Of a stretch of 64,000 nucleotides of DNA, positions 12,184 through 59,801 are shown piece after piece; the first letter of the stretch is position 1; every line of letters starts with the position of its first letter. Source of the DNA: Bdellovibrio reynosensis (lineage in GTDB: Bacteria; Bdellovibrionota; Bdellovibrionia; Bdellovibrionales; Bdellovibrionaceae). A program made the translations under genes and the position numbers. The notes beneath the pieces were generated by a model. The model saw only the letters and a program-made list of their open reading frames with translations, had not been told where the DNA came from and searched no databases. The DNA lies in the NCBI RefSeq assembly GCF_022814725.1, contig NZ_CP093442.1, forward strand, positions 1,612,001 through 1,676,000, written 5' to 3'.

Positions 12184-12993
12184 ATGGCGAAAAACAACTG
12201 GCTTATTCCTTCTTTGATTGTCGTGGGCTTATTTAGCGTAGCCCTTTCGTTATTCATAGCTTCGCAAACTGAAAAACAAAAACCTGGCGCACGTCCTCTT
12301 GCTCGTCTGGAATTAAACCTAGGCAAAGTTTTCGTCTTAAGAAAAAACATGACCCAAAAAGAAAAGCTGGGCCGCAAAGCCAGTCTTTTTGCTTTAGATT
12401 CCGTTGAAACAAGTGTGGACGGAGATGCCACCATGGAATTTGATTCTGCCTACCGTATCCGCATTCCTGAAAACAGCTTGATCACAATCGATGAAGAAAC
12501 AGAACGCATCGTTTTAATTATTAAGCGCGGCGATCTGCAGGTAGAAAACTTCGGCCGTGAAGGCAGCGTTTATATTTCAAAAGACGGCGTTCGTTGGACC
12601 GCCACTGATTATGAAATGAATTATAAAAAGCAAGCTCCTGAGGAAACCTTGCCAGAATTAGCTCCGGCAGAAACAGGCGTACCCGCAGTTCCAGTTGCCA
12701 ATATGGCTGAGGGCTTAACGTCAGAACAAATCCAAGACACGTTAAAAACCCATCGCAGTAACTTCTTTAAATGCTACACTCAGCTTCTGCAAAAAACACC
12801 AGGAGTTGTGGGACAAGCTTCGATCAGCTTCACGATCGAAAGAACCGGCAAAGTCGCCCAAGCCGAAATAGCTTCATCAAGCATCACTGATGCAGGCTTC
12901 AAAAAATGTTTATTAGAAGCAACAAAACGCGTGGAATTTAAATCCTTCGGCGGCGACCCAATCACCACTGTTTTCCCTCTGCGCTTCGAATAG
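12184..12993 (+). CDS. Membrane-anchored protein with FecR-like and AgmX/PglI-type C-terminal domains
   Basis: The product has 269 residues. One membrane helix (about 5-27) anchors a periplasmic body. Residues 45-135 (LELNLGKVFVLRKN, DATMEFDSAYRIRIPENSLITI) read like a FecR-type beta domain. The last 85 residues (LTSEQIQDTLKTHRSNFFKCYTQLLQ, GQASISFTIERTGKVAQAEI, FKKCLLEATKRVEF) match the AgmX/PglI or TonB-like C-terminal domain known from myxobacterial gliding and development proteins, including its two cysteines. Role unknown. It faces a family B palindrome at its 3' end. Confidence 0.75.
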   Translation: MAKNNWLIPSLIVVGLFSVALSLFIASQTEKQKPGARPLARLELNLGKVFVLRKNMTQKEKLGRKASLFALDSVETSVDGDATMEFDSAYRIRIPENSLITIDEETERIVLIIKRGDLQVENFGREGSVYISKDGVRWTATDYEMNYKKQAPEETLPELAPAETGVPAVPVANMAEGLTSEQIQDTLKTHRSNFFKCYTQLLQKTPGVVGQASISFTIERTGKVAQAEIASSSITDAGFKKCLLEATKRVEFKSFGGDPITTVFPLRFE

Positions 12994-13076
12994 TGGCCGT
13001 TAAAAAATTCAACTAGCCACGCTGACGAAGTTCACTTGGATGCCACACAAAATGAATGTATTGTCGCTAGCACGAA

Positions 13077-13241
13077 GGGCTTTTGCAGACTGAAGGGCTC
13101 CATTTGCAACGGACCGAAGAGAGGCCTTCGTCGGCGCCACGACGGCGCGAACCGCAACGAAGTTGCGGCGACGATTGAGCCTGGATGGCGTGCCGACCGA
13201 AGCGTCCGGTGTAAATGGAGCCCTTCAGTCTGCAAAAGCCC
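13077..13241. repeat. Long palindromic intergenic repeat, family B, copy 1 (convergent junction)
   Basis: The outer arms of 29 bases (13077-13105 and 13213-13241) are perfect reverse complements of each other. The inner part holds GGCGCCACGACGGCGCG and the hairpin CCGCAAC-GAA-GTTGCGG (13152-13168). The segments 13123-13149 and 13150-13190 match, in inverted orientation, 59168-59194 (25 of 27 bases) and 59061-59101 (34 of 41). The element fills the gap between the stops of two convergent genes. Bases 12994-13076 before it contain only a weak GTGGC/GCCAC hairpin. Confidence 0.88.
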
Positions 13242-13250
13242 GCCTTCGAG

Positions 13251-14327
13251 TTAACGATAATCGTGTAAGTAGTCGATGCGATCAGGAATCCAAGGTTCGT
13301 GGACTCCTTCGAGTTCGAAGACTCTTCCATCTTGAACTGTTTTTTCTTTGAGGGGCGCCACTGATGGCTCGTAGGATGCGTGAAGCAAACCTTTTTCAAA
13401 GAAGAAGGGTTTTATTTCATGGAAGGCTCTTTCGCCTAGAATTCCACGGCGGATGAATTCGTCAAAACTTTTCATCAGCTCTTCTGGAGTGTATGAGTAA
13501 TTATAGATCATGTCTTGGATGACTGAATAAATGCCTTCAAAACTAATACGGTTGTCCTGATATAAATCTAAAGCGACTTGAAAAGTATTGTAGGTAGCTA
13601 AAGTTCTTCTGCCGAATTTCAGATAATAATCGGGATCCGTATCCGTTGCTAAGTTGATATAGATTTTTTCAACAGGATCGTTTTCCGGGATATTCGACTG
13701 AAGTTCTAAGATCGTACTAACCTGTTCACCTGAAACGTTTAACTTTTCTAAAGTTGTGCGAATCTCGTGAGCGCTTAGACGGCGGGAACAAATATCCGAA
13801 TACAGATTATAAATAATCGCATCTGTTTCACTATCGTCGCCCCAGCAGATTTGACGAACGTTTTCACCCAAGCGCGTACGCAGCTGTAAAAGCGCTTGCA
13901 ACTTATAGCCCACTTGTTTGGTCAGACGCCAGAACCGTCCCGGGCGAAGATTCGCTAGGTTGTCTTTATAAAAACATCCAAACGGTCTTATATTATCTAA
14001 CGAGAATTTTTCAGAGATTCGTTCTTCTAATTGCGGCGGTGAAGCCGTGATAAAATATATCGGAAAATACATATAGCCCTTCTGCTGCTTTCGATATTCT
14101 GAAAGCGATTGCAAAAGAGCATTGGTACCAGGAATGTTTTTCTTATTTAAAGCGCGCTCTAAGATCGTAGTCATTAAACCCGACAAAGAATCGATTGTGG
14201 TATCAAGGTAGGTTTTATCGAGGTCCCAGATAAAGACCTCGTCATGGCTTTTTTCCATTCCTTCCGATACATATCGAAAGAACACCACATCACCATTCAT
14301 TTCACTTCGTTCGCGCCAATCTGCCAT
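13251..14327 (-). CDS. App1-like (DUF2183-type) HAD-fold phosphatase domain protein
   Basis: The product has 358 residues. The DxDxT signature is at Asp35-Asp37 (FIWDLDKTYLDT), the second motif is YFITASPPQLEERI (91-104), and a basic stretch LRPGRFWRLTKQVGYKLQAL follows. CWGDDSETDAIIY supplies the distal acidic pair. These features and their spacing resemble the catalytic domain of phosphatidate phosphatase App1 and its bacterial relatives. The C-terminal 150 residues are helical and not recognised. There is no signal peptide, so it is probably cytoplasmic. A substrate cannot be named from sequence. Upstream on the same strand is a MepA-like lipoprotein. Confidence 0.65.
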   Translation of the reverse strand: MADWRERSEMNGDVVFFRYVSEGMEKSHDEVFIWDLDKTYLDTTIDSLSGLMTTILERALNKKNIPGTNALLQSLSEYRKQQKGYMYFPIYFITASPPQLEERISEKFSLDNIRPFGCFYKDNLANLRPGRFWRLTKQVGYKLQALLQLRTRLGENVRQICWGDDSETDAIIYNLYSDICSRRLSAHEIRTTLEKLNVSGEQVSTILELQSNIPENDPVEKIYINLATDTDPDYYLKFGRRTLATYNTFQVALDLYQDNRISFEGIYSVIQDMIYNYSYTPEELMKSFDEFIRRGILGERAFHEIKPFFFEKGLLHASYEPSVAPLKEKTVQDGRVFELEGVHEPWIPDRIDYLHDYR

Positions 14328-56809: not shown

Positions 56810-58918
56810 ATGTCCAAAAAGTGGAATATTGATACGGTCAGAAATATCGGTATCTCGGCTCACATCGACTCGGGAAAAACCACATTGTCTGAGCGTATTT
56901 TGTTCTATGGAGGTAAGATCCACGCTATCCACGAAGTTCGTGGTAAAGATGGCGTCGGCGCTACAATGGACTCCATGGATCTAGAGAGAGAAAAAGGTAT
57001 CACCATCCAGTCTGCTGCAACTCAGGTTCAGTGGAAAGATTATACAATCAACTTAATCGATACACCGGGGCACGTGGACTTCACAGTTGAAGTTGAACGT
57101 TCTCTTCGCGTTCTTGACGGTGCGATTCTAGTTCTTTGCGGTGTTGCTGGTGTTCAATCTCAGTCCATCACTGTTGACCGTCAGATGAAACGTTACAGCG
57201 TTCCACGTTTGGCATTCGTTAACAAATTGGACCGTCAAGGTGCCAACCCTTTCCGCGTTAAAGATGCTTTGATCGAAAAACTTCGTTTGAATGCAGTTAT
57301 GGTTCAGATCCCAATCGGTTTGGAAGACCAACACCGTGGTATCGTTGACCTAGTGCAAATGAAAGCTTTCATCAATGAAGGTCAAGACGGCGAAAAAATC
57401 ACTGAAATCGAAATCCCAGCTGACCTAGTTGATCAAGCTAAAGAATACCGCAACATCATGATCGGTGCTCTTGCTGACATCGACGATGGTATCGGCGAAA
57501 AATTCTTGATGGAAGAAGAACCAACTCAGGACGAAATCAAAGCTGCGATCCGTAAAGGTGTTATCAGCTTGAAACTAGTTCCTGTATTCTGCGGATCTGC
57601 TTTCAAAAATAAAAACGTTCAGCATTTGCTTGATGGCGTTACTTACTACTTGCCAACTCCTGCTGAGAAAAAAGAACAAGCTCTTGACCTTAACAAAGGC
57701 GAAGAGAAATTTGATCTTTACCCAGACAATACAAAACCACTTGTGGCTTTGGCGTTCAAACTTCAGGAAACTCCATTTGGTCAATTGACTTACATGCGCG
57801 TTTACCAAGGTACGCTGAAAAAAGGTGATTTCATCATCAATCAGTCGAACAAGAAGCAAGTTAAGATTCCTCGCTTAGTTCGTATGCACTCTGATAAAAT
57901 GGAAGATATCGATGCATCATACGCTGGTGACATCGTAGCATTGTTCGGTATCGACTGTGCTTCTGGTGACACGTTCTGTGACGAGCGCGTGAATGCGTCT
58001 ATGCAATCTATGCACGTTCCAGATGCGGTTATCAGCTTGGCAGTTGCTCCTAAAGATAAAACTGCAGCGAACAACTTCTCTAAAGCTCTTCAAAAATTCC
58101 GTAAGGAAGACCCTACTTTCCGCGTACACCGTGACGAGGAATCAAATGAGACTATCATCTCTGGTATGGGTGAGCTTCACTTAGAGATCTACGTTGAACG
58201 TATGAAGCGTGAATTCAACTGTGAAGTTATCGTTGGTCAACCTCAGGTTGCTTACCGTGAGACGATTTCTCAAGCAGCTGATTACGATTACACTCATAAA
58301 AAACAAACGGGTGGTTCGGGTCAATACGCGAAGATCGTTGGTAAAATCCAACCTCTTCCTCCACAAGAAGACGGTTCTGTTTTCAAATTCGAAAACAAAG
58401 TTGTCGGTGGTCGTATCCCTAAAGAATTTATCCCAGCTGTTGAAGAAGGTTTCAAAGAGCAAACTGTTAAAGGTCCATTGATTGGTTTCCCAATCGTTGG
58501 CGTTGAAGTTGTTCTTGAAGACGGTGCTTACCATGACGTCGACTCTTCATACATGGCGTTCAAAATCGCTGGTATGGCGGCTCTTCGTGAAGTGTATGCT
58601 GCTGCGAAACCAACAGTTCTTGAGCCAATCATGAAGCTTGAGACGACTGTTCCAGATGAATACCAAGGTGCAGCGGTTGGCCAAATCAACCAACGCCGTG
58701 GTACTATCGTTGGTACAACTGCTTTCGAAGGTAACGTTGTTATCGAAGCGGAAGTTCCATTGACAGAGATGTTCGGTTATTCAACTGATCTTCGTTCTGG
58801 TACTAAAGGAAAAGGCGAATTCTCTATGGAATTCGCGAAGTACGCTCCAGTACCTCGCAACATCCAAGAAGAACTTGCTAAGAAATACCAAGCTAAGCGT
58901 GCAGCTGAGCAGAAGTAA
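56810..58918 (+). CDS. fusA: Elongation factor G, spirochaete/mitochondrial-like EF-G1 type
   Basis: The product has 702 residues with all five EF-G domains. The G motifs are [18 protein letters not shown] and NKLDRQG. Switch I reads [30 protein letters not shown], split here as residues 43-72, which follows mitochondrial EF-G1 ([22 protein letters not shown]) and not the E. coli form. This is the signature of the spdEFG1 subfamily of spirochaetes, planctomycetes and delta-proteobacteria, specialised for translocation. It stands alone, outside a str operon, with its own terminator. Confidence 0.96.
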
Positions 58919-59014: not shown

Positions 59015-59236
59015 GGGATTTGCTTAGCTATGGGCTTTGGTATCTCTCACTACGCTGGCGCGCCATCCGGGCTCAGTCACCGCCGCAGCTTTGCTGCGGT
59101 TGTTGAGGGCTCCTGCCCTCAACCCCTTCGGGGCTTACGCGCAAAAATAGCATCCTGCTATTTTTGGCGCGCCGTCGTGGCGCCGGTGAAGGCCGGCTTC
59201 GTGGGAGACACCAAAGCCCATAGCTAAGCAAATCCC
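59015..59236. repeat. Long palindromic intergenic repeat, family B, copy 2 (convergent junction)
   Basis: The outer arms of 27 bases (59015-59041 and 59210-59236) are perfect reverse complements and differ in sequence from the arms at 13077. The core segments 59061-59101 and 59168-59194 match copy 1 in inverted orientation. In the hairpin CCGCAGC-AAA-GCTGCGG one A-T pair of copy 1 is replaced by G-C. An extra chain of hairpins (59103-59166, including AAAAATAGCA/TGCTATTTTT) is shared with 5247-5310. The gap 58919-59330 holds the fusA terminator, this element and the terminator at 59277. I see no gene in it. Confidence 0.88.
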
Positions 59237-59330: not shown

Positions 59331-59801
59331 CTATCGGCAGTCTTCTAGTGATCTTTCTGGAAGTTCGATTTGTCTTTCGTGTATGAATTCGAATCCTCTG
59401 ACGTTTGCCGAAATGTTTTCACGTAAGCTCATGAAGCATTTTTTTGAGAACGTGTCAGGCCAAACAAGCCGTGTTACTTCGATTGTAAATGGCGCAGTTA
59501 GAACTTCTGGGTTTCCTTGGACTACGTCTTCTACTTTGAATGTTTGGAAGGTTGCTACACAGGGTGCTGATTCGCCTTCGTTTCGGTGATTCATAAGGGT
59601 ATGATCGGCTAATTGCGGAATAAGGATTTTAACAAATTTTGTGGTGCCGTAGCCTGCGTTGCTTAAGCGGATACCAGCAGTTGATAGATCAACAGGTAGT
59701 TCTACAACTTTTTTAGAGATTACTTCCTCACGTAGTTCTGCTGTTGCGGTCATTGCACATAATGTTAGGCCTAGAGCCAGGATCCAATTTAGTTTTTTCA
59801 T
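59331..59801 (-). CDS. Small secreted protein, function unknown
   Basis: The product has 156 residues. The signal peptide ends at TATA (about residue 21). The mature part has four cysteines (ESAPCVATF, SKKCFMSL, and the C-terminal LEDCR) and a beta-rich pattern (FKVEDVVQGNPEVLTAPFTIEVTRLVW). AAGGAGGGTAAAA gives a very strong ribosome binding site. It is divergent from a LysR regulator across 92 AT-rich bases and may be its target. Confidence 0.78.
   Translation of the reverse strand: MKKLNWILALGLTLCAMTATAELREEVISKKVVELPVDLSTAGIRLSNAGYGTTKFVKILIPQLADHTLMNHRNEGESAPCVATFQTFKVEDVVQGNPEVLTAPFTIEVTRLVWPDTFSKKCFMSLRENISANVRGFEFIHERQIELPERSLEDCR

Follow-up and report, generated by a model that had tools for sequence, protein, structure and literature searches.

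The window analysed here is a 64-kb stretch (positions 1612001-1676000) of the 3,582,323-bp chromosome of a bacterium of the genus Bdellovibrio, labelled G000. Two related long palindromes were present, about 13 kb and 59 kb into the window, each located at a convergent gene junction as the first-pass annotation had noted. The features of the two loci, numbered from the first base of the window, are as follows.

12184-12993, plus strand: left neighbour gene, encoding a protein with an AgmX/PglI C-terminal (TonB-like) domain
12994-13076, plus strand: non-coding, A-rich leader that precedes the hairpin on the core strand, with a weak excess of C over G
13077-13114, plus strand: left arm of the 13 kb element, 38 nt long and pairing at 95% with 13204-13241
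13109-13210, plus strand: conserved core region (covariance model R1, G000:C1:1625109-1625210, 98 bits)
13128-13133, plus strand: 5' side of the closing stem P2, pairing with 13169-13174
13134-13148, plus strand: hairpin H1, GCGCC(ACGAC)GGCGC, helix 3 of the core alignment
13149-13151, plus strand: GAA linker of the three-way junction, unpaired and nearly invariant
13152-13168, plus strand: hairpin H2, helix 4 of the core alignment, with strong covariation
13179-13189, plus strand: hairpin H3, GCC(TGGAT)GGC, nearly invariant
13204-13241, plus strand: right arm of the 13 kb element, pairing with the left arm
13251-14327, minus strand: right neighbour, an unnamed conserved gene whose stop codon is 10 nt away from the right arm
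56810-58918, plus strand: fusA (elongation factor G), with an intrinsic terminator of its own that precedes the 59 kb element
59015-59059, minus strand: arm of the 59 kb element, 3' on the core strand
59041-59208, minus strand: core of the 59 kb element, an enlarged variant (L017:1374-1541)
59103-59133, minus strand: two more small hairpins present in the enlarged variant, AGGA forming the loop of one
59142-59166, minus strand: additional hairpin of the enlarged variant, core-strand loop AGGA
59192-59236, minus strand: arm of the 59 kb element, 5' on the core strand
59331-59801, minus strand: convergent neighbour beyond the 59 kb element

The 29-nt arms at 13077-13105 and 13213-13241 were indeed perfect inverted repeats, and the pairing extended to 38 nt at 95%. 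Only one inverted pair within 400 bp in the whole window was longer, namely 59015-59059 with 59192-59236 (45 nt, 89%). The folding energies of the 13 kb and 59 kb elements corresponded to z scores of -12.6 and -13.3 relative to dinucleotide shuffles, and none of 200 shuffles folded as well. The reported recurrence of the inner part of the 13 kb element at 59015 on the minus strand was borne out, as was the exchange of an A-T for a G-C pair in the second hairpin (CCGCAAC-GAA-GTTGCGG at 13 kb, CCGCAGC-AAA-GCTGCGG at 59 kb). The first-pass annotation was thus right that the window holds two related copies and understated their number, since about 20 related copies were found in G000, with only the inner part in common.

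Of 24 genomes of the genus, 22 had copies matching a covariance model of the core, R1, with up to 30 per genome; G003 and G004 had none. When the core was compared by BLAST with 60 relatives, good matches were confined to the genus; the sole match outside it, among 34 other genera searched, was weak (35 bases, E 1.4e-4). About 85,000 species were also scanned for an exact pattern, which was narrow and returned just two Bdellovibrio records. No Rfam family scored above threshold, and only two chance-level hits appeared at E up to 5. A phage or plasmid origin was also considered and rejected, the search having given one weak match to a Myxococcus phage and no match to a plasmid. The elements are a genus-specific family of interspersed, strand-specific folded sequences, located mostly at the 3' ends of genes.

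Read 5' to 3' on the core strand, the order of the parts is leader, left arm, P1, P2, H1, GAA, H2, ACTGA, H3, GTG and right arm. The arms range from 20 to 45 bp across the family, and the short stem P1 often holds a purine-rich CGAAG/CGAAG internal loop. The core itself is a three-way junction, formed by a closing stem and two hairpins, together with a third hairpin. In an alignment of 39 cores, 93.1% of the pair cells were standard pairs and G·U pairs were rare. Cells in which both sides had changed numbered 129, compared with at most 22 when the partners were slid out of register, and shuffles never reached as high a count. Helix 2 (P2) was paired in 95.7% of its cells, with two-sided changes in five of its six pairs, and in some relatives the H3 stem was swapped from GCC/GGC to GGC/GCC. 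The H1 and H3 loops were almost without exception CGA or GGA, with the same alternatives in both. The compensatory changes in a conserved secondary structure by which structured RNAs are recognized were therefore found in the core. The first-pass annotation had offered three explanations for a conserved core inside variable, self-matching arms, and the first, a selected structure, was supported by this covariation and by the strand-specific mismatches described below. Two known structures were suggested by the motifs. A hammerhead ribozyme (GAA and CTGA) was rejected because the required order of core motifs was absent on inspection by eye, and an attC site (conserved unpaired bases in a folded strand) was considered unlikely, as the copies bound no cassettes and the arms had no boxes in common.

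The enlargement seen at 59015-59236 also occurred in two other G000 copies, the extra hairpins lying between H1 and H2 (window 59103-59166; L008:1851-2017; L002:975-1139). Two of these three enlarged copies were paired, in inverted orientation, with ordinary copies.

The arms followed a different pattern. Within a genome, paralogous cores were up to 98-100% identical, while the similarity of their arms did not exceed that of chance alignment; the arms of paralogues were unrelated, yet each was almost perfectly paired with its own partner. The outer ends had only ATTTG (about 6 nt) and short tails in common. The presence of near-identical cores inside unrelated arms shows that cores are exchanged between copies independently of the arms; in the pair L196 and L218 the core had been swapped and the arms were unchanged. 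Near-identical cores in unrelated arms could also arise if the core inserted into the loop of pre-existing hairpins and the arms belonged to the site, another of the original explanations. One locus resembles its predicted product, in that G022 (L222) has a hairpin of joined outer arms where G012 (L193) has an element. However, the loop of L222 retains the inner left arm and the join is at a microhomology, so that it reads better as a deletion of the core than as an empty site. Moreover, orthologous junctions that lack the element were mostly short and without a related hairpin bearing those arms, and arms change even where the core stays. Insertion into hairpin loops is consequently not supported and is considered very unlikely.

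Comparison of orthologous loci showed that the arm sequence is replaced rapidly and on both sides together, at a fixed locus and with pairing kept, faster than the surrounding DNA changes. The 13 kb junction had a different arm in each of G000, G018, G001 and G005, every one self-paired, and at the fusA junction the arms of seven species differed from one another yet paired. In the orthologues L163 (G001) and L180 (G018), whose flanks and core were 97% identical, 14 arm pairs had changed on both sides with pairing kept and only three on one side. In 26 independent orthologue pairs, 86 arm pairs had changed on both sides with pairing kept, 55 had changed on one side and 603 were unchanged, counts that rest partly on pairwise alignments of fast-changing arms. 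The flanks of the same loci had diverged by 8.7% and the cores by 8.1%. If the two sides changed independently, about 2 matching double changes would be expected (0.087 squared over 3, times 760), compared with the 86 observed, and 39 of the 86 had no route through a G·U step. Individual loci had undergone either no change or extensive change, a pattern suggesting that single events substitute several bases.

The remaining original explanation, regeneration of the arms, held to the extent that the two arms of a locus are rewritten jointly; its variant of gene conversion from another copy did not. The 13077 arm had no second occurrence in 24 genomes at up to three mismatches, nor did the L163 arm in G001 or G018. 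Conversion from another copy is not favoured because neither of the arms searched occurs elsewhere in the genomes scanned. Inverted duplication of nearby flanking sequence was likewise rejected, as the longest words common to the arms and their 400-bp flanks were no longer than those obtained with permuted arms. With neither source supported, the simplest remaining account is that small changes are passed from arm to arm, and short-range template switching between the arms would be the best candidate mechanism. In this scheme the 5' arm would be copied onto the 3' arm by template switching during replication, which would spread any change in one arm to the other, while variants that left the arm unpaired would be removed by selection. 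Since a change in one arm spreads to its partner, the arms would drift freely as sequence and not as structure. The arms therefore look maintained by a combination of selection and replication template switching. It is improbable that a dedicated, structure-driven process is responsible instead, in which the folded element would recruit an activity that periodically replaces both arms, spares the core and leaves each locus with private arms; the candidate activities may include fork stalling with hairpin repair, or copying of a self-primed or reverse-transcribed intermediate.

The arms were asymmetric in base composition. The 5' arm was rich in G and T, G-C plus T-A pairs exceeding C-G plus A-T pairs in 121 of 143 distinct arms (p = 9e-18). 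An excess of G-C and U-A pairs is predicted when intrastrand switching corrects G·U by the 5' base (Monttinen and Loytynoja, PMC8794818), and the excess found here is what intrastrand template switching predicts. The same asymmetry, the bursts of double changes, the freedom of the arms in sequence and the deletion derivative L222 would all be expected of a neutral palindrome, kept perfect by template switching alone with its fold unselected, for which the coding palindromes of nematomorph mitochondria provide a precedent (PMC6649704). Against this stand the mismatches, the core and the leader. Isolated arm mismatches, read on the core strand, were G·A 57, G·T 39, A·C 16, G·G 10, C·T 8 and A·A 7; the opposite strand would show mainly C·T and A·C, so that the core-strand fold is favoured. 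The short core helices covary and are accompanied by invariant unpaired bases, and the sequence upstream is biased as well. These three features call for selection acting on a single strand, or for some other cause specific to one strand, and neutral maintenance is accordingly judged unlikely.

The bias upstream was confined to one side of the element. On the core strand, the 150 nt immediately 5' of the left arm were rich in A and C, poor in G and weakly structured. C exceeded G in this segment in 89% of 100 copies, compared with 49% on the other strand, and the leader was also far less structured than its counterpart there (-15.2 as against -24.0 kcal/mol). The excess of C over G and of A over T in the left flank rose over about 400 nt towards the element and ended there, with no such bias on the opposite side, and was alike whether the left gene pointed towards or away from the element. 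Sequences of 78 nt resembling rut sites were only moderately enriched (57 versus 38 of 100). The leaders of the two window copies were only weakly biased, with C/G counts of 19/17 and 17/15. The bias could stem from selection that favours unstructured RNA, or from a mutation gradient specific to one strand. Taken together, the mismatches, the unpaired purines and the unstructured, G-poor leader indicate that an RNA fold on the core strand is probably under selection.

Among 163 copies with callable neighbours, 77 junctions were convergent, 75 tandem and 11 divergent, the ORF calls being mechanical, and the end of the right-hand gene usually lay no more than some tens of bases away from the element. 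The 13 kb junction carried an element in G000, G001, G005, G007 and G018. In relatives with the same neighbours and no element the junction was short, and the HD100 group had a small hairpin in place of the element, preceded in G023 by a run of A. Many genomes lacked an element at the same junctions. The fusA junction had one in nine genomes and none in thirteen; because the nine of 21 genomes in the fusA tree fall on both of its deep branches, common ancestry with losses and repeated gains give the same picture.

One alternative is a non-autonomous mobile element, a single-stranded hairpin moved in trans by a Y1 transposase of the REP-associated, RAYT-like type and without a host function. 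Several observations are consistent with this alternative, 1) the copy number varies from 0 to 30 between species, 2) the outer tails and ATTTG ends are conserved, 3) inverted pairs 100-650 bp apart recall BIMEs and REPINs, 4) Y1_Tnp genes were found in 21 of 24 genomes and 5) the elements are intergenic and avoid divergent junctions. Yet the number of Y1 genes did not follow that of the elements; G008, G013 and G017 carry elements without a Y1 hit, and G011 has four hits and few elements. Apart from one copy about 2 kb from a transposase in G005, no copy was found to flank such a gene. No two paralogues had common arms, as a recent jump would give, and most copies in G012 and G022 were orthologous. 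None of the filled and empty sites compared had a target-site duplication or was a clean empty site, and the terminal inverted repeats that define MITEs and IS elements were absent from the copies save for ATTTG. Present mobility without a host function is therefore doubtful, although the most plausible of the alternatives set out here; a mobile origin is possible and would be compatible with a present function.

The Y1-type (RAYT-like) transposase genes numbered 0-12 per genome across the genus. The inverted element pairs had their 5' sides face to face (L052/L178, L073/L166, L230/L231/L234 and L128/L232/L233), and their spacers, mostly 100-650 bp, were non-coding and conserved in sister species.

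The interpretation to which we would give an even chance is that these elements, a family placed mostly at gene 3' ends, mark transcription boundaries, perhaps with Rho, and that their arms are kept by selection together with template switching. The RNA of the core strand would act as a long hairpin behind an unstructured, G-poor leader, and the element would stop or trim transcripts arriving from the left, possibly with the help of Rho, sparing the neighbouring gene from run-in. We infer the RNA-level function, the boundary role, the involvement of Rho and the template-switching mechanism from sequence patterns. The arrangement associated with Rho, an unstructured RNA with more C than G followed by a hairpin, was found at the level of the family and was weak in the two window copies. 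The U-run that follows the hairpin of an intrinsic terminator had no match at the 13 kb element, and the right ends of the family were CCCGTCGCTCGAAGC-like. Since fusA has its own terminator, the 59 kb element is not needed for fusA.

A trans-acting role, as a structured RNA or a protein sponge that offers the C/GGA loops of H1, H3 and the extra hairpins to one RNA-binding partner, would explain why H1 and H3 have the same CGA-or-GGA alternatives and why the extra hairpins have AGGA loops. However, CGA loops are unlike a CsrA site, and a CsrA sponge in particular was rejected because CGA freely replaces GGA. Promoters were not enriched upstream of the copies, and an own promoter was discarded for the same reason. 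Only one of the eight published small RNAs of attack-phase HD100, APsRNA6, overlaps a copy (PMC3627812), and it is mainly an ORF with the core in antisense. A trans-acting role is thus quite improbable.

The same transcript bears on the boundary proposal. APsRNA6 is located on the plus strand at 1,338,787-1,339,441 (PMC3627812, Table 2). In G006, which we take to be B. bacteriovorus HD100, a GCCGAAAA motif lies just upstream of the published start. The transcript runs through a copy that has its core on the minus strand, in antisense orientation, and its estimated end falls inside the next relative, which is plus-oriented (sense) and has a truncated core. APsRNA6 fits an orientation-dependent boundary, as a single case with an estimated end. 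The locus (L278, G006:C1:1337900-1340600) looks to be mainly a short protein-coding gene with two family elements and not a plain small RNA.

REPs are sequences of 20-40 nt with conserved stems, and ERICs are palindromic intergenic repeats of about 130 nt whose centre is conserved and which occasionally carry internal insertions. Like the Bdellovibrio family, the REP/BIME (PU) and REPIN elements are interspersed intergenic palindromes, rare at divergent junctions and sometimes in inverted pairs, the arrangement of REPs in BIMEs being described in PMC2817692. The Bdellovibrio elements differ in their length of 160-250 nt, their three-way-junction core and their long arms, which are unique to each locus; a short stem sequence common to the copies, as in REPs, was not found because the arms of paralogues are unrelated. 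The likeness to ERIC lies in the intergenic palindromes, the conserved centre and the internal insertions, whereas ERIC arms are conserved in sequence, those of Bdellovibrio are not and the hosts differ. The RhoTermPredict model (PMC6407284) likewise has an unstructured leader with more C than G and a strong hairpin within 150 nt, but differs in having no conserved core structure common to terminators. Template-switch hairpins (PMC8794818, PMC6649704) have in common with the present arms the multi-base double changes with pairing kept, the 5' excess of G-C and T-A and the perfect arms that differ between species; the Bdellovibrio elements are a bacterial repeat family, with a conserved core lying between arms that are far longer than rRNA stems. 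Interspersed palindromic repeats and hairpins maintained by template switching thus both have precedents, and the family is real and unusual.

Extended compensatory change in RNA stems is usually put down to rare two-step mutation, and template switching, the proposed alternative, has been examined largely in the stems of rRNA. In this one bacterial genus, several hundred long stems, each with a conserved core and with flanks that give the divergence, carry double changes well in excess of what independent change predicts; these changes come in bursts and show the predicted base asymmetry. The question thereby becomes directly measurable in a culturable organism, and the family offers a natural experiment on how long hairpins are kept perfect. 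Should the elements also set transcript ends, they would be gene boundaries of a class not yet annotated in predatory bacteria, the model strain HD100 included.

Two further loci were of interest. At L215 (G022:C1:2555700-2557900) a small ORF lies between two inverted elements where G012 has a single element without the ORF. A different family of long palindromes, with a GGAGCGAACCTCCGGGCCCGC core and 25-bp arms, adjoins a copy in G012 and G022 (L103, about 1900-2100, and L124).
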